Virus record (IMG/VR): IMGVR_UViG_3300037225_000673
Span: 1 to 64,000 of that record
Source: a virus
DNA: 64,000 nt
Direction: 5' to 3' (one strand)
Part shown: piece after piece, positions 6,566 to 58,742 of the stretch
Layout: every line of letters begins with the position of its first letter
Position numbering within the stretch: the first letter of the stretch is position 1
Notes under the pieces: generated by a model
What the model saw: only the letters and a program-made list of their open reading frames with translations
Database searches by the model: none
What the model was told of the DNA's origin: nothing
Position numbers and translations under genes: made by a program

Positions 6566-7332
6566 CACATAATCAGGTACCATTTGATGAGTTTCTGCGG
6601 CGTGCTGCGCGGCCCATTCCTGTTAAAGACACTCCAGAAACAAGAACTGCCATACAAAGAGCACGAGAAGAATTGATGACATTGCTAGAATCAGAACGCG
6701 GAGGATTACTAAATGAACAGGAAGTCATATACCTAAGATGGCGTCTAGTCAGACGAATTACCAACCGTTACAATATACCCTTCTTGCTAAACGCGATCAG
6801 TGCTGGGCGTATCTGCGAAGTCGGTGTGAGAAACGGCGAACACCTTCTCAGTCTACTCACCTCGGTAGCCTCTGAGGTAGTTGCCGTTGACCTATGGCAA
6901 GAGACTGGTAGGCGTTCTGAGAATGACTACTGCTACACTCAAGCCGAGCTAGATGAGCTGTACGCGCATGTTGCTGCCCTCGACACTAGAGTAATCGTAG
7001 ACAGAAACCCGTCGATTGTTGCAGCAACCCATTACCCCGATGGCTACTTCGACTTCGTTTATATCGATGCCGATCACACCGAGTCAGCAGTCGAGGGTGA
7101 TCTTCGTGCGTGGTGGCCGAAAGTACGAGCTGGAGGAATATTGTCTGGTCACGATTACTTAGAAGTCTCGCCTATTTGCAAAGATGGTACCAAAATTCAC
7201 TTTGGGGTTATTCCTGCAGTGAACCGGTTCGTTGCCAAGTTAGGGCTGGGTCTGCATGTTGACTGTGATTCTGACTGGTTTATAGTTAAATATCTTGAAT
7301 CAGAAAGAGGATCAGATGGCAAACCCATTTAA
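6562..7332 (+). CDS. Class I SAM-dependent methyltransferase
   Basis: A 256-aa protein. Motif I ICEVGVRNGEHLLSLL (about residues 83-98) and motif post-I VVAVDLW define the SAM pocket; YFDFVYIDADHTESAVEGDL and AGGILSGHDYL match the Methyltransf_24 type found in sugar or natural-product O-methyltransferases. The N-terminal 75 residues are helical. The substrate is unknown; cell-surface sugar or nucleotide modification is plausible. A second, broken gene of the same kind lies at 61854-62499. Confidence 0.8.
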   Translation: MTHNQVPFDEFLRRAARPIPVKDTPETRTAIQRAREELMTLLESERGGLLNEQEVIYLRWRLVRRITNRYNIPFLLNAISAGRICEVGVRNGEHLLSLLTSVASEVVAVDLWQETGRRSENDYCYTQAELDELYAHVAALDTRVIVDRNPSIVAATHYPDGYFDFVYIDADHTESAVEGDLRAWWPKVRAGGILSGHDYLEVSPICKDGTKIHFGVIPAVNRFVAKLGLGLHVDCDSDWFIVKYLESERGSDGKPI

Positions 7333-7678
7333 AGTTGGCACAATGGAACATGATATGTTCAATCAGATGCCTACTGGTAATCCAGACTTCATTGCATTTC
7401 TCAAGAAGTGCGTGATAGATGCTGTGAAGAATGATCCTGCCACGCAACTCATTCGCGAAGCTCTGGACATTCGAGCCTCACGTTCACGCTGTGAGGTTTG
7501 CAAGGGTCCGGCAACTCGCCAAGCATTACAACATATACCATTGTTTTGTGATGAGCATGGGCTACATGATCTTATTAGATTAGGAGAAGAGTCAGATATA
7601 CATTATAGAGATCTGCGCAATGCCGATTGGGTTCGCAAAGCCATAGCCCTTCTAAAGAGGCGTGATGGAAATTGCTAA
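7316..7678 (+). CDS. Hypothetical protein with CxxC
   Basis: A 120-aa protein starting MANPFKVGTM; AGAGGA seven bases before the ATG at 7316 supports this start over an ATG at 7295. The middle has RCEVCKGPA and FCDEHGL, a probable C-C-C-H zinc site. The N-terminal 40 residues are low in structure. Overlaps both neighbours. Confidence 0.65.
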   Translation: MANPFKVGTMEHDMFNQMPTGNPDFIAFLKKCVIDAVKNDPATQLIREALDIRASRSRCEVCKGPATRQALQHIPLFCDEHGLHDLIRLGEESDIHYRDLRNADWVRKAIALLKRRDGNC

Positions 7679-23928: not shown

Positions 23929-26346
23929 TTATTTCGTTGCTACCCTAACTCCATCTAATGTTATTGAGGTTGCTCCTGTAATAACAATCGTATGGGTTGC
24001 TGGTGCCGGTGTTGGTACCGGGGCGGGTGGAGTTGGAACTGGCACCGGCGCTGGAGGCGGCGTTGGGGTTGGGGCTGGTGGTGCAGGCGTAGGCGTAACC
24101 GTTTGCAACGCTGCCAACAACTTGGTCCCAACTGGGACACCAACACCAGTACAGGCATCCCAACCTACACGAGCGGCATAGGTTCCGTTGTTGCCGGTGA
24201 TAATATCTCTATACCATCCTGTCAATGAATAGAGTGCTGAGTTTAGATAGCCAACATTCTTTCCAAGGGCCTGTGTTAAACAGGCCGCTAAAGCCGCCCA
24301 TAGAGGCGCTACTGCACTCGTTCCACCGATAACATAGTTCTGACCATCGACAATAACATTCCAACCGCTATTTGGATCTGCATTACCGGCAACGTCAGGA
24401 ACGCCACGATACTTTCCGCCAGGAACATTTGCTTTTGCTTGATAGGTTGGAATGGCAAACAGGGAACTAACGCCACCGCCAGTTGCCTCTCCTCCTCCAT
24501 CATTCCATACAACTTCAGTTGTCGTGTTCAAAGCAGGAAGGCTGGTACCTCCACAGGCCAGAACAAGTGGCGATGATGATGGAAAGTCAACGTGGTTTCC
24601 AGATTCGCCATCACCTGAACCTCCGTCGCCGGCTGCCACTGTTACAGTAATCCCGGCAGTAGCTGCACGCTGGAATGCGGTATTGAAATTGGCAATCGAT
24701 GTAGAACTCCATTGATCTTCAGGTGAGTTGCCACACCATGAAACCATGCCCTTTCTACGAACAAACATGATATGGTTGGGCACTGTCAAACAGTATACAA
24801 AGTCATCATAATCAGCTTCATAGCGCTTAGTGAGGCGTTCTGTTTTGTATGTCTCTTTGATATTTACTCGATATTCTATATGTCTGGTTATACCCTTTGC
24901 GTTTTTCCTGCCTCGACGATCAATTGTTTTGATAGACCCAACAAAGCCGAGTTTCAAAAGCAACTCTTGTACACCATCTGCAAGCATCTTTGAAGATGTA
25001 TAGTACGCCTGCTTGCCTTTTCCATTCCGAGTCCCATCTCCCAACATAAGAGCATCATATAATATTCTTAATTGTTGTGGGCAGGCCGATAAAATATGAG
25101 GTGGAATAAATTTTTCCCATGACTTACCAAACTTAGCTAGCCCCAAACACAATTCACGATTGCAACAACTCCATCCGTGTCCATTACGGTTGAATTTGAA
25201 TGGCATTTTATCAAGACAACGTTGAATCTGCGCAACCTTTTCTGGATTTGAAATTTGTGATATTCCGGTCGAATATGTTTGCTCATCAAATGCCTTGGCT
25301 TGATATTCTGTTTGTATTATTTCTATTGGTGTATCCTTATGGCGTTTTGCAAAAGTGCCATCGTGCATTCGCTCTATTCTTTGGTTTAGGAATCGTGGTC
25401 GTTTTTTGACAAAGGTGCGTTCTTTATGGTGTGTAACTCCAATACTGGTGTGTCCTTCGGATAGAAAGTAGCCCATGAATTCAAGGTAAAGATCTGCATT
25501 AATATTTTTACCACCTAAAGTTACCGTCTTTAGCTCCTCACCATTCCATAACGCCGTCTTAGGCACATAACACCAATTATTAGAGAAAATCTCTTCTGAT
25601 GGATATAAATCAGCTTGATGCTTCGCACGTTTCACATACATCATATGATTAGGTGTAACCATCAAATCGGTGCAACTCCCTTGGTAATGGTGCATTTTAC
25701 CTTTGTAATGATACTTGTGAGTTTTTTGAATAGGTTGATATTCTAATTCTCCTGTACTGGGATTTAATGTAGCAATCAGCTCATCTCCGTTAATATTCTG
25801 GAAATAACGCCATCCTGTATTTGTTAACACTTCGGTCTCGTTGTCATAACAACCCCAAGAGATACTGATTGCGGTCATATCATCAGTAATAGCCTGGTTG
25901 ATTGCGTCCAAGAAGCCAGCGTCTGTATTTGGGGCCATGTAGCAGTGAAGCTCTGCACCAGGGGCCATTGCACCAATGATACATAGGTCGAGCATTACTT
26001 CGCCATCAGCTCCATTAGGATCGCCGGGAGCGTTCTTTGCCCCATCGATGCCATGAAATACTACTGGCTTTACTGTTAGTCCAAGGGAAGTAAAATACTT
26101 ATTTAGATCTGCTTGAACGTAGCCACCTCCCAATTCAATAACTGCAACTTTGGTTCCAACTCCTGTTGCGTTCGTTGGGAAGCCATAAAATGTGGCCAAT
26201 TGCTTTGGGTTATAGCTAACGCTTGTAGCGCGAGATCCGGCGAATGGTCTATGTCCAATCTGTGGAGGAATTGGTGGGCGTCTATTACCTGTGGTGGGTA
26301 ATGCTGCTGCGCCTTTAAATCTCCTGATATATGATATTAGTTGCAT
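23929..26346 (-). CDS. S53 (sedolisin) peptidase interrupted by an intein
   Basis: An 805-aa precursor. Host parts: residues 1-165 and 541-805 form a sedolisin: Glu116 and Asp120 (GADGEVMLDLCI), oxyanion Asp574 (AAGDGG) and nucleophile Ser677 (GGTSAVAP), a complete triad. An intein with an embedded LAGLIDADG homing endonuclease occupies residues 166-540 (Cys166 first, Asn540 last, Ser541 after). The C-terminal tail is a long Pro/Thr repeat (PTPAPPAPTPTP) ending in a small beta domain. No propeptide is visible. Probably a virion-associated or secreted protease. A TATAAATA promoter lies 57 bases upstream. Confidence 0.88.
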   Translation of the reverse strand: MQLISYIRRFKGAAALPTTGNRRPPIPPQIGHRPFAGSRATSVSYNPKQLATFYGFPTNATGVGTKVAVIELGGGYVQADLNKYFTSLGLTVKPVVFHGIDGAKNAPGDPNGADGEVMLDLCIIGAMAPGAELHCYMAPNTDAGFLDAINQAITDDMTAISISWGCYDNETEVLTNTGWRYFQNINGDELIATLNPSTGELEYQPIQKTHKYHYKGKMHHYQGSCTDLMVTPNHMMYVKRAKHQADLYPSEEIFSNNWCYVPKTALWNGEELKTVTLGGKNINADLYLEFMGYFLSEGHTSIGVTHHKERTFVKKRPRFLNQRIERMHDGTFAKRHKDTPIEIIQTEYQAKAFDEQTYSTGISQISNPEKVAQIQRCLDKMPFKFNRNGHGWSCCNRELCLGLAKFGKSWEKFIPPHILSACPQQLRILYDALMLGDGTRNGKGKQAYYTSSKMLADGVQELLLKLGFVGSIKTIDRRGRKNAKGITRHIEYRVNIKETYKTERLTKRYEADYDDFVYCLTVPNHIMFVRRKGMVSWCGNSPEDQWSSTSIANFNTAFQRAATAGITVTVAAGDGGSGDGESGNHVDFPSSSPLVLACGGTSLPALNTTTEVVWNDGGGEATGGGVSSLFAIPTYQAKANVPGGKYRGVPDVAGNADPNSGWNVIVDGQNYVIGGTSAVAPLWAALAACLTQALGKNVGYLNSALYSLTGWYRDIITGNNGTYAARVGWDACTGVGVPVGTKLLAALQTVTPTPAPPAPTPTPPPAPVPVPTPPAPVPTPAPATHTIVITGATSITLDGVRVATK
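24727..25851 (-). mobile_element. Intein with LAGLIDADG homing endonuclease
   Basis: A 375-residue element inside the S53 gene. N-terminal splice block CYDNETEVLTNTGW and second block VTPNHMMYV; LAGLIDADG helices LEFMGYFLSEG and LYDALMLGDGT; C-terminal VYCLTVPNHIMFVRR and WCGN before Ser. The last pair is Gly-Asn instead of the usual His-Asn. Splicing would restore SWG-SPED and the peptidase fold. The homing endonuclease would spread it between alleles. Confidence 0.9.
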
Positions 26347-28169: not shown

Positions 28170-28346
28170 ATGAATAGTATGCGTGACGAAATCATTGCCC
28201 GGCACATTATGACGCCAGCTGGTAAACGTAAGCTAGCTGCGGCAATCTTCAGGCCGATGGGTAAAGCTATGGGTTTCGATGATGAAACCGTAGAGTGGGC
28301 CATTCAAAAAACTCTTGAGAAAATGCGCGAAAAGGAAGGCGACTAA
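28170..28346 (+). CDS. Small helical protein
   Basis: A 58-aa basic helical peptide (MNSMRDEIIARHIMT...). Start ATG 28170 is favoured by AGGA nine bases upstream over an in-frame ATG at 28152. The stop overlaps the next start (TAATG). Confidence 0.65.
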   Translation: MNSMRDEIIARHIMTPAGKRKLAAAIFRPMGKAMGFDDETVEWAIQKTLEKMREKEGD

Positions 28347-29080
28347 TGCCAAAGCTCAATCAGATAATTGCTATTGAAGACGGCTCAAAGAAGAATGGTT
28401 ATGCAGATCTTTCTAAGACACATCATGTCTTACAGAAGCCAGATTTGTTCTCTGGATTTGTGGCAACGTATGCTCCACACACCGAAGATCCAACACTGAA
28501 GCAACCCGAACAGCGCAAGGTCATCCAGCAAAACGCCCCAGAAATTGTCAAGTTGGCGCAAGTTGGCCTGGCAGAGATGTGGAATATCGTTGCAACCAAA
28601 GACATTGGCAACTGTTCTGCTAAAGCTGATGTAATTGTTGATGGTGTAACTCTGGCGGCTCAAGTTCCAGTTACTCATCTGCTTTTCTTAGAGAAGCAAT
28701 TGACAGACATCAGAACATTCATTGCCAAACTTCCGGTGCTGGATCCGTCTAAAGAATGGATATATGATTCTAATAAGGGAATGTATCAATCGAAGTTCCC
28801 AGAGCAGCGCATCAAGACTCGCAAAGTTCACAAGTCATTGGTGAAGATTGAACCCGGGCCCCATTCTCCTGGGCAGGCAGATATCATTACTGTAGATGAA
28901 TCTGAAGGGTTGTGGACTCAGGTTGACATGTCAACATGTTATCCTCAAGATGCAATCAAGAATATGCTTGACCGTGTCTCGAAGCTATCGGCTGCTGTGA
29001 AATCGGCGCGCGAGGAAGCCAACTCAATTGTTGTTGAGAAGGCCGCGATAGCTGAAAAGCTCCTAGATTTTATCTTCTAA
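28346..29080 (+). CDS. Hypothetical protein
   Basis: A 244-aa protein. N-terminal 60 residues extended, middle helical (LFLEKQLTDIRTFIAKLP), then a beta-rich basic segment (KTRKVHKSLVKIEPGP) and a C-terminal coiled coil (AVKSAREEANSIVVEKAA). Such proteins recur in large phages but I do not know a function. It is followed by a terminator. Confidence 0.7.
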   Translation: MPKLNQIIAIEDGSKKNGYADLSKTHHVLQKPDLFSGFVATYAPHTEDPTLKQPEQRKVIQQNAPEIVKLAQVGLAEMWNIVATKDIGNCSAKADVIVDGVTLAAQVPVTHLLFLEKQLTDIRTFIAKLPVLDPSKEWIYDSNKGMYQSKFPEQRIKTRKVHKSLVKIEPGPHSPGQADIITVDESEGLWTQVDMSTCYPQDAIKNMLDRVSKLSAAVKSAREEANSIVVEKAAIAEKLLDFIF

Positions 29081-29124
29081 TGACTCCGAAACTCTCTTCG
29101 GCTGTGAAAGGCTTGAGAGGGACC

Positions 29125-29144
29125 GCCCCCTAAGTGGGGGCTTT
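29125..29144 (+). terminator. Rho-independent terminator
   Basis: GCCCCC (29125-29130), loop TAAGT, GGGGGC (29136-29141) and TTT. It follows the gene ending at 29080 and precedes the tRNA-like region, whose outer helix starts within its tail. Confidence 0.75.
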
Positions 29145-29316
29145 AGCAGACAATCTGAATCTCAATCTGAATCTCAATCTGAAAGCATAAGCGCGCGGGA
29201 GCAATCCCATTGCAGGTTCGAGCCCTGCCCCGGCGACCGGGCATTAAGCCCTTTCAAAAACGTCGGGTACCCGAATTGGCATAGGGGCGCGTGAGCAAAT
29301 CAATCTATTCTGCTAA
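29143..29316 (+). tRNA. Candidate permuted class II tRNA (3' half first)
   Basis: The 3' half comes first: anticodon-stem strand GCGCG (29191-29195), variable arm GGGA-GCAA-TCCC, T arm GCAGG-TTCGAGC-CCTGC (29212-29228), acceptor strand CCCGGCG (29229-29235) and discriminator A. The 5' half follows: acceptor strand CGTCGGG (29261-29267), TA, D arm CCC-GAATTGGCATA-GGG, anticodon strand CGCGT. The acceptor strands pair over all seven positions (one G-U), the anticodon strands over five, and TTAGCAGA (29143-29150) pairs with TCTGCTAA (29309-29316). Long variable arm suggests Tyr, Leu or Ser type; the anticodon is not assigned. A 12-base tandem repeat (CAATCTGAATCT) lies at 29151-29183. Confidence 0.65.
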
Positions 29317-29347
29317 TCTCAATAAAACCGAGTCAGCCTAATCAAGT

Positions 29348-29474
29348 TGTAGTAATTATGTAGAGGAGATGCCGATTCGATTTCGGCCCTCCCGGCAAGG
29401 TTTATCAGTCTCTAGTAGATCTTGCCGGGAGGTGGTTCAAGGGAAAAACGCCTCACTTCAAAATCAGTACTACA
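29348..29474 (+). tRNA. Candidate permuted tRNA with UCA anticodon (Trp-like)
   Basis: 3' half: stem strand AGAGG (29362-29366), variable AGAT, T arm GCCGA-TTCGATT-TCGGC (29371-29387), acceptor CCTCCCG (29388-29394), discriminator G. 5' half: acceptor CGGGAGG (29426-29432), TG, D arm GTT-CAAGGGAAA-AAC, G, stem CCTCA, loop CTTCAAA (29456-29462). Acceptor strands pair perfectly (the helix extends to 12 bp), anticodon strands four of five. TGTAGTA (29348-29354) pairs with TACTACA (29468-29474). The loop gives anticodon UCA, which reads UGA; G73 and the GUUCAA D arm resemble tRNA-Trp. Confidence 0.65.
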
Positions 29475-29501
29475 TTAAACGCCGTAGGTTGAAGAGCGGA
29501 T

Positions 29502-29546
29502 GGGCGATGAGGGAATTAGGCTACAACTCCCGAGTCGCCCTTTCTT
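29502..29546 (+). terminator. Terminator after the tRNA-like genes
   Basis: GGGCGA (29502-29507) with TCGCCC (29535-29540) and, inside it, GGGA (29511-29514) with TCCC (29528-29531), followed by TTTCTT. It is probably the end of the tRNA transcript. Confidence 0.7.
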
Positions 29547-52465: not shown

Positions 52466-53881
52466 ATGGAGACCGATGTGTCTTTTAAATATATTGCTCA
52501 AAAAATTAGTGATTCTCAGTACGTTCTTCCTAAAGTTGGAACTATGAAAACTGATGCTAAAGTATTTTTCTCAGAGGAGCTTTATGAAGCCTCCGAGGAA
52601 AATTACTGGAAGCAACTTCATGATGCCGCTTCATATGAAGGTGTCACCGGAGTATATGGATTGCCAGATGGCCATTCTGGGTTTGGTGTTCCAATTGGTT
52701 GCGTTATTGTTACTGATGGAACGCTAATACAAGCCGGCTCTGGCTATGATATAAATTGTGGAATAATTTGTTTGAAGGTAAATCTTACGGCCAATTCTGT
52801 TAAAAGTTTTTACAAAAGAGAGCAATGGATTCGTGAAGTTGAAAAAAGGGTATCTTCAGGAATCGGATCTGGGCGACCTAAACTAATGCCAACCTTTAGC
52901 GATAAGAAGGTTCAGGAAATTCTTCGCTATGGAGCCAAGGCTCTAGGTGCACACAAAGAAATTTGTGAAAGACAATATATCCCTGTGCCAGACGAAATGG
53001 ACTTTACAGTCATTGAAAAGGCTTATGCTAAGGTATCGTCTCAGCTCGGCTCTGCCGGCGGCGGAAATCATCATTGTGAGCTACAAGTAGATCAGGATAG
53101 TGGTGATGTATATGTAATGGTTCATTGCGGTTCGCGTGGATATGGATATCAGACAGCGAAACACTTCTTCTATGCCGGAGCCGAACTTCGTGGATTACCA
53201 AAAAATAGACGTGAAGATTCATGGCTTAGAATAGACGAACCTCTTGGTAAAGAATATTGGGCTTATCACAATAGCGCGGCAAACTTCGCAATTGCTAATC
53301 GTCACATTATAATCAGCGGAATTAAAGATGCTCTTCAAGAAGTTTTTAATGCAGACTCAGAAGTATATTACGAAATTAGCCACAATCTAATTCAGGAAGA
53401 AACTTTAATTCTTCCAGATGGAAGTACAACAAAAGGATTTGTCCATCGTAAAGGGGCAACTAGAGCCTTTCCAGCAGGTCACCCAGATCTTATTGGTACA
53501 ATATGGGAAAAGACAGGCCACCCTTGTTTAATTCCAGGATCAATGTACGATGGAGCGGCTATTCTCTTTGCCGAACCAGGGGCGCATCAATCCGCTTGTT
53601 CTGTAAACCATGGATCTGGTAGAAAGATGGCTCGTGGAGAAGCTCGTCGCAAACTAGAACATAAACAATTAAAAATTGATGATGATATGAAAACGGTTAA
53701 GCGTAAACTTGGAGGAGTTGAGATCGAGGGTATAGCAATTAACAACAAGCACACGCCACTTGATGAATGTAGTCATGTATATAAGGATCTTGATACTGTG
53801 CTTGAGGTATTGACAACAAACAATATAGCAAGAATAGATAAAAGGCTTTATCCTGTAGCAAATATCAAGGGAGTTGATTAA
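52466..53881 (+). CDS. rtcB: RtcB-type RNA ligase
   Basis: A 471-aa protein with the RtcB fold: GLPDGHSGFGVPIG and SGYDINCGI (active-site loops), GSAGGGNHHCEL (about residues 195-206), HCGSRGYG (about 218-225), HRKGATRAFPAG (about 326-337) and MYDGAAIL. It seals RNA 2',3'-cyclic phosphate ends to 5'-OH using GTP, the reaction used for tRNA splicing and repair. Length and motifs are near complete. Probable ligase of the permuted tRNAs in this window. Confidence 0.9.
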   Translation: METDVSFKYIAQKISDSQYVLPKVGTMKTDAKVFFSEELYEASEENYWKQLHDAASYEGVTGVYGLPDGHSGFGVPIGCVIVTDGTLIQAGSGYDINCGIICLKVNLTANSVKSFYKREQWIREVEKRVSSGIGSGRPKLMPTFSDKKVQEILRYGAKALGAHKEICERQYIPVPDEMDFTVIEKAYAKVSSQLGSAGGGNHHCELQVDQDSGDVYVMVHCGSRGYGYQTAKHFFYAGAELRGLPKNRREDSWLRIDEPLGKEYWAYHNSAANFAIANRHIIISGIKDALQEVFNADSEVYYEISHNLIQEETLILPDGSTTKGFVHRKGATRAFPAGHPDLIGTIWEKTGHPCLIPGSMYDGAAILFAEPGAHQSACSVNHGSGRKMARGEARRKLEHKQLKIDDDMKTVKRKLGGVEIEGIAINNKHTPLDECSHVYKDLDTVLEVLTTNNIARIDKRLYPVANIKGVD

Positions 53882-56248: not shown

Positions 56249-56944
56249 ATGGATGATAAAGAGTGCTCAGTATGTCATGAAGTAAAACCGATAACTGTCT
56301 TTAGGTGGAAGCGCAAGAAATTCAATGAACGAATTTCTATGTGTGATGTATGCGATCCAATATATCGCGCAGAAAGATATCAGCGCAGAAAAGATCATGT
56401 ATTAGCTCTTGGTCGAGCTTCTTTAGAACGAAGGCGCGAAAAGATTGCCAGAGAGGGCGTTCCTAACGATGACCGGCGTTGTATAGAATGCTTAGAAATA
56501 AAGCCAGCTGATAATTTTCGTTGGATAAATATAGCCCTTGGATATCGCGCGGCTAGATGTAAACCATGTGATGCTATATTTAGATCTTATACATATCCAG
56601 ATCGAAAAGACGACATCATTGCCAGTAATAAACGTCAATATGCAAAATTACGTTCGTTATTAGACAGTTTAAAAACAGGACCTTGTTGTGATTGTGGGAA
56701 AAATTTTCCAGTCGAGGCTATGGATTTTGACCACCTAGATCCAACAACAAAGATAGATAAGTTATCTTCTATAGTCTATAAAGGATCGGAGCCTTTGTTG
56801 TTAGCTGAAGTGGCAAAGTGTGAATTAGTTTGCTCAAATTGTCACAGAATTAGAACTCATAATAGACGGAAAGAGAATAAAAATGGACAAAGAGAACCTA
56901 GGGCCAGCAGAAAGAATTCTTCAGACGGTACTGGCGTACAGTGA
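56249..56944 (+). CDS. HNH endonuclease with zinc knuckles
   Basis: A 231-aa protein. Two similar N-terminal zinc modules (CSVCHEVKPITVFRW, CIECLEIKPADNFRW) precede the HNH: CCDCGKNFPVEAMDFDHLD and LVCSNCHRIRTHNRR. Homing-type nuclease, preceded by a 184-base AT-rich gap. The end overlaps the next gene by 62 bases. Confidence 0.8.
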   Translation: MDDKECSVCHEVKPITVFRWKRKKFNERISMCDVCDPIYRAERYQRRKDHVLALGRASLERRREKIAREGVPNDDRRCIECLEIKPADNFRWINIALGYRAARCKPCDAIFRSYTYPDRKDDIIASNKRQYAKLRSLLDSLKTGPCCDCGKNFPVEAMDFDHLDPTTKIDKLSSIVYKGSEPLLLAEVAKCELVCSNCHRIRTHNRRKENKNGQREPRASRKNSSDGTGVQ

Positions 56945-58742
56945 TCATCTTATACATAATCGTTGTGGAATTATTATAACAGACGCTCGTACAACTGTCG
57001 GTGTTCGATGGGAGCCTGTTACGCACAAGATTGAAGGCGGTCAGAAGTCGGTCTATAAGCTAGCGAAAATTGGCAAGAAAACCACCAAGACGCTGATCGG
57101 AACCCTGCGCGACGACAAGAAAATTGTCACCGCCAATGGTGCTGTTATTGGTGAATATCGTGAAGCTGGCATCTTCCCGGAAGTTGCGGCTTGGATGTAT
57201 CGCCAAGTCTCCGAGGTTTGGAAGCTTGACCACGAGTTTGCTGCCAAATGGGCATCACATGCCTTCTCCGAGGACCACCGCGACTTGAAGGTCGTACTCG
57301 CGGCATTCATGTTGGTTCAATCCCGCAAGGGAGATCCAATCGTGGACAATGGCAAATTGGCTTTCTACGACGCGGATTATCGCGATGTAGGTGAAGCTAT
57401 GATGCTTATCTACAGCAAGAATGGGAAAGATATGAATCCCAAGCTGTTGCTGCGCATGCATGATCTACTTCGGCTGCCGGAAGTTGCGCAAATCAATCGT
57501 GAGCTTGGTTTCGGCCGTTCAGATCGCAAGCCATTCATTGGGCGTTGGGCAAAGGTCGTTGAGAAGTGGCTGCAATATCGCGAGGAAAACCCCAAGCTAC
57601 TTGAGGGTTTGATCAAGGCCGGCTTCCGAAGCACAGTCATGAGCCTCGCGCAACGCGTTGGCTACAAGCCGGCATCTCCTAAGTTCTTTGAACTTCTGCG
57701 CTGGAAGCAGAAGCAAGCGGACGACGGCCGTCGTGAGATGGCTATCGGTGTTGCCGTCACTGAAGCTGAGTCTTGGGAAGGTCTTAGCGAAGAGCAAATC
57801 TGCGAACGGATCCAATCCGAGCGCATTGGCCTCAAGCGAGTTGAGGGTATGTTGCCAAAGAACATTGGCCTCACACGTGCAATCATGGCGTCAATCATTG
57901 AGGCGAATCTCATGTCCGATAAGGATTTGATCATTCGAACACCCACTCTAGAGGAATTGGGTCTCCTTAATGTCAATGACATCAAGGTTCGTTGGGAACG
58001 CGCTATCAAGAACTCAGAAGATATGCGTGCAGCCAATATCGCACGCAATGTAACTTCAACCGAAATCAAAGAGAAGCTACAAGACGGCGCTGATAATGCT
58101 ATCAAGAAGGCGGCTGAAGAAGTGATCAAGGGAATTAGAATCTACTTCATCGTAGATATATCTGGTTCTATGAATGCTTCTTTGCAAATGGCAAAGGAAT
58201 ATGTAGCTAAATTCGTTCAGGGTATTCCCCTTGATCATATTCATGCTTGTGTATTCAATACTCAAGCACGCGAAGTTCCTTTGCGGGTTGCCAGCAAGGC
58301 CGGAATTGATAATGCTTTCATGGGTTTCCGTGCCAGTGGTGGAACTGATTACGGCTGCGGCGTGCGCTACATGACACGGTTCAAGCCAAAGGATGACGAA
58401 GATTCAATCATCGTCTTCGTTGGTGATGAAGGCCAACATCCAACCTTCGAGAATGATGTTCGGAATTCCGGACTTCGCCCGATGGCCTTTGGTTTGATCA
58501 AGGTGCCAGGTGACCGTGGTTCTTGCGTGGTTGATACGGCGGCAAGGCTCAACATTCCTTGCTTCAATATCGATAGCCGAACCTTCGAGGATGTTTACGC
58601 AATTCCGCGTACGCTTCGAAATCTAATTGCGGCAACACCAGTTCGGCAAACTCCTGCTGTGGCATACTCGTTCGTTCGAGAAACTTTGGTTGACAAGATC
58701 ATCAAGGTTGATTTGTTAGTCAAACCCGCATGGGCTGCTTAA
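56883..58742 (+). CDS. vWA protein with helical repeat N-terminus, possibly Ro60-like
   Basis: A 619-aa protein. The C-terminal vWA domain has MIDAS DISGSM, ASGGTDYG and FVGDEGQHP. The region in front (residues 100-400) is an all-helical repeat scaffold, as in TROVE/Ro60 proteins that bind misfolded RNAs and Y RNAs. Homology to TROVE by eye is suggestive only. Ro60-type genes often sit near RtcB in bacteria, as here. It might handle tRNA-like or structured RNAs. Confidence 0.55.
   Translation: MDKENLGPAERILQTVLAYSDHLIHNRCGIIITDARTTVGVRWEPVTHKIEGGQKSVYKLAKIGKKTTKTLIGTLRDDKKIVTANGAVIGEYREAGIFPEVAAWMYRQVSEVWKLDHEFAAKWASHAFSEDHRDLKVVLAAFMLVQSRKGDPIVDNGKLAFYDADYRDVGEAMMLIYSKNGKDMNPKLLLRMHDLLRLPEVAQINRELGFGRSDRKPFIGRWAKVVEKWLQYREENPKLLEGLIKAGFRSTVMSLAQRVGYKPASPKFFELLRWKQKQADDGRREMAIGVAVTEAESWEGLSEEQICERIQSERIGLKRVEGMLPKNIGLTRAIMASIIEANLMSDKDLIIRTPTLEELGLLNVNDIKVRWERAIKNSEDMRAANIARNVTSTEIKEKLQDGADNAIKKAAEEVIKGIRIYFIVDISGSMNASLQMAKEYVAKFVQGIPLDHIHACVFNTQAREVPLRVASKAGIDNAFMGFRASGGTDYGCGVRYMTRFKPKDDEDSIIVFVGDEGQHPTFENDVRNSGLRPMAFGLIKVPGDRGSCVVDTAARLNIPCFNIDSRTFEDVYAIPRTLRNLIAATPVRQTPAVAYSFVRETLVDKIIKVDLLVKPAWAA

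Follow-up and report, generated by a model that had tools for sequence, protein, structure and literature searches.

Probable tandem tRNA-mimic modules downstream of the DUF7873 gene

The window analyzed here, a 64,000-nt stretch of DNA (positions 1 to 64,000 of the 84,560-base IMG/VR virus record IMGVR_UViG_3300037225_000673), likely encodes a putative structured non-coding RNA of about 425 nt at positions 29115-29545, directly 3' of a gene for a DUF7873 protein. The RNA is predicted to consist of two tandem modules mimicking transfer RNA (tRNA), and it is probably a relative of the bacterial Y RNAs and not a tRNA for protein synthesis. Each module would comprise three tRNA elements, the T arm, the D arm and the acceptor stem, with the acceptor end closed by a linker and the anticodon arm replaced by a long basal stem built from the RNA's own flanks. 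As this is the topology of YrlA-type modules, the permuted order of the elements would be the normal layout of the fold, not that of a gene awaiting splicing. The structure and its conservation, the tandem layout, the linkage to DUF7873, the covariation of the tRNA elbow, the likeness to Rsr-linked Y RNAs and the lack of a family-wide anticodon loop were all computed here.

A preliminary description of the site had proposed a permuted class II tRNA gene, with cutting and ligation of the transcript at the anticodon loop. The elements on which it was based were all found in place (Table 1). In module A the T arm and 3' acceptor strand precede the 5' acceptor strand and D arm, the acceptor strands pair over seven positions with one G-U, the would-be anticodon strands form five pairs, and the outer helix has eight pairs, both strands of which are retained in L065, the nearest relative of the window. 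The class II assignment also held: the variable arm is GGGA-GCAA-TCCC, and ARAGORN reported a class II tRNA fold for the circularised segment. As in the earlier description, no non-permuted fold was found; neither ARAGORN nor Rfam found a conventional linear tRNA at the site, and ARAGORN found none in the whole window. The permuted order and the tRNA-like fold, both strongly conserved, were upheld, but the designation as a tRNA gene was not.

The minimum-energy fold of the raw-strand RNA was the permuted cloverleaf. A purpose-written scanner scored modules A and B at 75 and 66, respectively, the best score in 150 dinucleotide shuffles of the window (both strands) being 58. Chance inverted repeats were ruled out by these shuffles together with the covariation reported below.

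Module B had been overlooked in the preliminary description. Its helix through the acceptor comprises 12 bp. The pairs of its basal stem in the window were read from the sequence; across the family this stem carries the conserved loops (G)AUCGAC and CUUAAACG opposite each other, and the internal-loop motif CTTAAACG is nearly invariant. The two modules have distinct family characters: module A shows a D stem of 3 bp and, in most cases, an A as discriminator, module B mostly a 4-bp D stem and U or G as discriminator, and the spacing from A to B is typically 143-160 nt. Related loci have a hairpin in the same place as the one preceding the RNA leader in the window. The hairpin at the probable 3' end was missed by a simple terminator scan.

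Table 1. Positions in the window of the DUF7873 gene and of the elements of the putative RNA.
Feature	Position	Strand	Pairing or evidence
DUF7873 protein gene (PF25283), 244 aa, conserved partner gene	28346-29080	+	Pfam, E 4e-78
Hairpin GCCCCC-TAAGT-GGGGGC just before RNA leader	29125-29141	+	Sequence and fold
Module A outer helix, 5' strand TTAGCAGA	29143-29150	+	Pairs with 29309-29316
Module A, permuted, tRNA-like, class II variable arm	29192-29291	+	ARAGORN (circularised), fold, scanner, covariance model
Module A stem, 3' strand CGCGC (would-be anticodon strand)	29192-29196	+	Pairs with 29287-29291
Module A T arm GCAGG-TTCGAGC-CCTGC	29212-29228	+	
Module A 3' acceptor strand CCCGGCG	29229-29235	+	Pairs with CGTCGGG
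Module A linker between acceptor strands	29236-29260	+	
Module A 5' acceptor strand CGTCGGG	29261-29267	+	Pairs with CCCGGCG
Module A D arm	29270-29286	+	
Module A stem, 5' strand GCGCG (would-be anticodon strand)	29287-29291	+	Pairs with 29192-29196
Module A outer helix, 3' strand TCTGCTAA	29309-29316	+	Inside conserved post-module-A region CTATTCTGCTAATCTC
Module B basal stem, 5' side: CAGCCT, then conserved internal-loop motif AATCAAG	29334-29346	+	CAGCCT pairs with 29486-29491
Module B stem, second helix, 5' strand TGTAGTA	29348-29354	+	Pairs with 29468-29474
Module B, second permuted tRNA-like module	29362-29455	+	ARAGORN (circularised), fold, scanner, covariance model
Module B stem	29362-29366 with 29451-29455	+	
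Module B T arm	29371-29387	+	
Module B acceptor strands	29388-29394 with 29426-29432	+	
Module B D arm	29435-29449	+	
Module B stem, 3' side: TACTACA, then internal-loop motif TTAAACG (conserved), then AGGTTG	29468-29491	+	TTAAACG at 29475-29481, AGGTTG at 29486-29491
Terminal G+C-rich hairpin, then TTTCTT; probable RNA 3' end	29502-29545	+	Sequence and fold; kept in L065

Linkage of the RNA to DUF7873

Both modules lie just downstream of the DUF7873 gene, whose product matches the Pfam family over its full length (residues 1-244; 262.9 bits against a cut-off of 27). Relatives of the protein were found in 62 GenBank phage records, 107 IMG/VR stretches and at least 554 bacterial genome contig stretches, the organisms including actinomycetes, cyanobacteria, planctomycetes, Chloroflexi and others. 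In phages and bacteria alike, the gene is usually followed on its 3' side by an unannotated gap that holds two permuted modules. Of the 155 DUF7873 loci, 138 have a module with all seven acceptor pairs on the strand of the gene, 0-700 nt downstream of it, while four other 700-nt windows used as controls contained one in 0-2 of about 150 and the opposite strand in 0-1. The twin-module RNA recurs in IMG/VR contigs, in phages of Gordonia, Arthrobacter, Rhodococcus, Pseudanabaena and Klebsiella and in several bacterial phyla; in Vibrio and Rhizobium phages single modules were seen. A nucleotide search of GenBank phages with the window region gave no match, and the twin-module RNA matched no Rfam family at the curated cut-off.

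The structure model of DUF7873 was confident (mean predicted local distance difference test score, pLDDT, 92.9), and no similar fold was found at E 0.001 in the PDB or viral fold libraries. Identification as a known enzyme or defence protein was abandoned, as no convincing match was obtained in NCBIfam, PHROGs, PADLOC, PDB sequences and folds, or viral folds. DUF7873 was named in no paper in the part of the literature that was searched.

Conservation and covariation of the fold

For the pairing test, the T and D arms were picked by their own features only and acceptor pairing was disregarded. Among the 287 candidates chosen in this way the acceptor pairing was bimodal, with 7/7 pairs in 185 of them, and the mean number of acceptor pairs was 5.67, compared to 3.54 (standard deviation, sd, 0.07) when the strands were exchanged between loci. 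The pairing was not carried by a single sequence, there being 122 distinct 5' acceptor sequences among 198 well-paired candidates. In a set of 51 bacterial modules, 99.3% of the T-stem and acceptor cells were paired and the covariation score was 0.81, against 0.21 when shuffled and at most 0.18 when slid; as these modules had been pre-selected for acceptor pairing, the test with 287 candidates is the fairer one.

The full-length alignment of 31 loci predicted 50 pairs, 42 of them with changes on both sides. These pairs included two helices in the basal stem of module B, which lay outside the selection; columns 244-249 covary with columns 386-391, in the helix equivalent to that of CAGCCT with 29486-29491 in the window. 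Also the outer stem of module B paired better than cross-locus swaps (19.15 vs 14.65, sd 0.33). The elbow pair of tRNA between the D-loop and T-loop (18-55) covaries as well (p 8e-11), with U55/G18 occurring 208 times and G55 accompanied by A18 in 7/7 scorable cases. In locus L004 the change of C56 to G occurs together with that of G19 to C. In L065 the layout and motifs of the window are kept, and the substitutions in the two acceptor stems and the class II variable arm are compensatory.

Single loci showed further variation. At positions 5828-5976 of L004, a complete ordinary tRNA-Thr is nested in the acceptor linker of the permuted module with G56/C19. In L037 (7914-8300; from the record of L005), two permuted modules are located away from a truncated DUF7873 gene; they have anticodon-like hairpins after the D arm (TTGGT-ATAAGGA-ACCAA and AGTGA-CAGTAAA-TCACT), and their break is therefore placed in the variable region. 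The flanks of these two modules have the motifs AACCTTACA and GGTTWATTACTCAGGT in common. A third hairpin with the conserved loop RGGATAY (e.g. CGGATATG) was observed 3' of the twin modules in many loci, L048, L050, L072 and L003 among them.

Relation to YrlA and other Y RNAs

YrlA is described as combining an Rsr-binding stem with a tRNA-like domain, which undergoes modification by tRNA enzymes and makes contact with PNPase (PMC8394870; PMC7790460). The modules resemble YrlA-type Y RNAs (RF02553; Salmonella YrlA) in having a T arm, a linker-closed acceptor stem and a D arm in that order, with a basal stem where a tRNA has its anticodon arm, and in having a long stem with a conserved internal loop formed from the flanks of the RNA, the stem of module B covarying. 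They differ in being two in tandem, in the link to DUF7873 and in occurring in phages that mostly lack a Ro60 gene; furthermore, the basal stem has other internal-loop sequences, and the Rfam score stays under the cut-off.

With a covariance model trained solely on bacterial modules, module B was detected with 35.8 bits (E 4.1e-9) and module A with 33.4 bits (E 2.2e-8); the record, window included, yielded no further match with E below 0.01. The same model detected Y RNAs beside Ro60/Rsr (TROVE) genes in bacterial genomes with up to 69.3 bits. It also gave false matches between neighbouring ordinary tRNAs, so that its matches inside tRNA arrays need checking. The Rfam YrlA model aligned the T arm, acceptor and D arm of module A in the same order, and at a Streptomyces locus both modules aligned over the full model (27.6 and 19.1 bits).

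Several results weigh against reading the locus as a Y RNA relative that partners DUF7873. The window scored weakly with the Rfam YrlA model (17.3 bits, E 0.66, against a cut-off of 69); in other phyla, Y RNAs adjoining an Rsr gene scored 34-43 bits and fell short of the cut-off as well. The window's 84.6-kb record, which is a fragment, yielded no Ro60/TROVE gene, and neither did 11 of the 12 other phage records; the locus is therefore not a textbook pair of Rsr and Y RNA. A perfect module was lacking from 17 of the 155 DUF7873 loci. The outer stem of module A, taken family-wide, did not pair significantly better than cross-locus swaps (16.96 vs 16.35, sd 0.37), perhaps because the flanks are repetitive. 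Finally, gene linkage is the sole ground for supposing that DUF7873 binds the RNA.

The RNA would thus work like a YrlA-type tRNA mimic, yet it was not filed as YrlA, as neither the Rfam cut-off was reached nor linkage to Rsr found when these were tested. We regard it as a tandem YrlA-like tRNA mimic that would work with DUF7873 and be largely independent of Ro60. Elsewhere in the window (56883-58742, + strand) a 619-aa protein is encoded whose C-terminal part holds a von Willebrand A domain (residues 421-515) and whose N-terminal part has no assigned domain; its size and domain order are reminiscent of Ro60, and no TROVE domain was detected in it.

Possible function

The basal stems, together with the conserved internal loops in them, may bind DUF7873, by analogy with the Y RNA stems that bind Ro60, and the tRNA-like modules may be seen by tRNA-binding proteins. 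If both apply, the RNA would tether or decoy such a protein, candidates being nucleases (PNPase, for instance), enzymes that modify tRNA and host defences that cleave it. We put this mechanism forward tentatively, as a possibility short of even odds. With somewhat better than even confidence, DUF7873 and the tandem RNA are taken to form a ribonucleoprotein system of phages and several bacterial phyla that is parallel to, and distinct from, Ro60 and its Y RNAs and in which the modules recruit or decoy tRNA-handling enzymes. The RNA suggests that placing a tRNA mimic on a stem that binds protein, the strategy of the Y RNAs, extends beyond Ro60, and it offers a way to test what DUF7873 does.

Alternative explanations

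The RNA and DUF7873 might form an RNA-protein toxin-antitoxin or a defence/anti-defence pair, the RNA neutralising DUF7873 or decoying tRNA-cleaving nucleases. This explanation, which we hold to be rather unlikely, concerns the purpose of the RNA and not its identity, and to that extent overlaps with the interpretation as a tRNA mimic. It agrees with the sporadic occurrence of DUF7873 (6 of the 199 Actinomycetota genomes sampled, query genome included), with its distribution over both phages and chromosomes, and with the bacterial loci sampled having no shared neighbour or partner gene; against it, PADLOC has no model that DUF7873 matches, and no nuclease fold is recognisable in the protein. 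The RNAs of type III toxin-antitoxin systems consist of repeated structured units adjoining a protein gene. The present RNA is similar in this respect, but it lies downstream of the gene, its units are tRNA mimics, and DUF7873 has no known toxin fold.

That the RNA is a true YrlA, a canonical Ro60/Rsr-binding Y RNA served by a host Rsr in trans, appears improbable. The module topology is the same, the Rfam YrlA model aligns with the modules, and a TROVE gene is present in 24 of the 42 bacterial genomes with DUF7873. However, none was detected in the other 18, TROVE was detected in only 1 of the 13 phage records, and each of the four genomes that were checked has a separate Y RNA adjoining its Rsr gene, on another contig. 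The RNA of the present family is linked to DUF7873.

A third explanation, close to that of the preliminary description, is that the modules are genuine circularly permuted tRNA genes: RNase P and 3' processing would open the acceptor linker, the outer stem would be cut, and the anticodon ends would be ligated, e.g. by a phage RtcB, to give working tRNAs. Several features agree with this, namely the permuted cloverleaf with its outer helix, the presence in many modules of a discriminator followed by CCA or near-CCA, and the sequence CTTCAAA after the stem of module B in the window, which would make a plausible UCA anticodon loop. An RtcB RNA ligase gene is also encoded in the window (52466-53881, + strand; PF01139, E 3e-86). 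RtcB occurs in bacterial RNA repair operons carrying YrlA, too.

The family-wide data make permuted tRNA genes very unlikely, and the proposed cutting and ligation at the anticodon loop was not borne out. At the would-be position 33, where U is expected, T stands in only 16 of 59 modules A and 14 of 66 modules B; among ordinary tRNAs of related phages the figure is 120 of 125. T was not enriched at neighbouring positions on either side, and there is no consistent anticodon across the family. The stem does not end in a loop but runs past the would-be anticodon into conserved, covarying helices with conserved internal loops. No splicing endonuclease (PF01974) was found in the 13 phage records, and RtcB was present in just two of them, the window's included, and absent from 11. 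Some related phages have, moreover, near-complete sets of ordinary tRNAs. The circularly permuted tRNA genes of algae and archaea (PMC3978253; PMC3218864) likewise have the 3' half encoded first; the present modules differ from them in lacking a family anticodon loop with U33 and a splicing endonuclease, in their continuous conserved basal stem, and in occurring in phages and bacteria. Some calls of permuted tRNAs in prokaryotes and viruses may therefore be tRNA mimics and should be treated with caution.

A suppressor-tRNA function, considered on account of single triplets that resemble anticodons, namely UCA in the window and CUA in L003, was dropped because this position is not conserved. 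In two Klebsiella jumbo phages, L052 (16013-16096) and L064 (3518-3597), a GenBank annotation 'tRNA-Stop(tta)' or 'Sup-TTA' overlaps module B and is probably a mis-call of the tRNA mimic. L003, from a 393-kb phage, has two tRNAs with UCA anticodons (6707-6780 and 7322-7396) and a transfer-messenger RNA (tmRNA) near the twin-module RNA, the UCA tRNAs giving a hint of UGA reading.

An artefact of tandem or degraded tRNAs, in which the T arm of one tRNA is followed by the D arm of the next, is conceivable given the misfiring of the covariance model between neighbouring tRNAs, but its probability is negligible: the window has no ordinary tRNA, and pairing between the acceptor strands of the two permuted halves is maintained by compensatory changes, both in L065 and across the family, a covariation that already refutes it.

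Also tmRNA was considered and rejected, as the Rfam tmRNA model had no match in the window. The two-piece (permuted) tmRNA has a permuted tRNA-like domain with a linker between the acceptor strands. The modules share this arrangement, differing from it in the presence of a D stem and in the missing Rfam match. The related phage record G001 contains a separate tmRNA.

Other genes in the window

On the minus strand, positions 23929-26346 encode an 805-aa protein with a LAGLIDADG-like domain. The protease part, recognised from its sequence and having no Pfam match, gives the protein the appearance of a sedolisin/subtilisin-type protease split by an intein.
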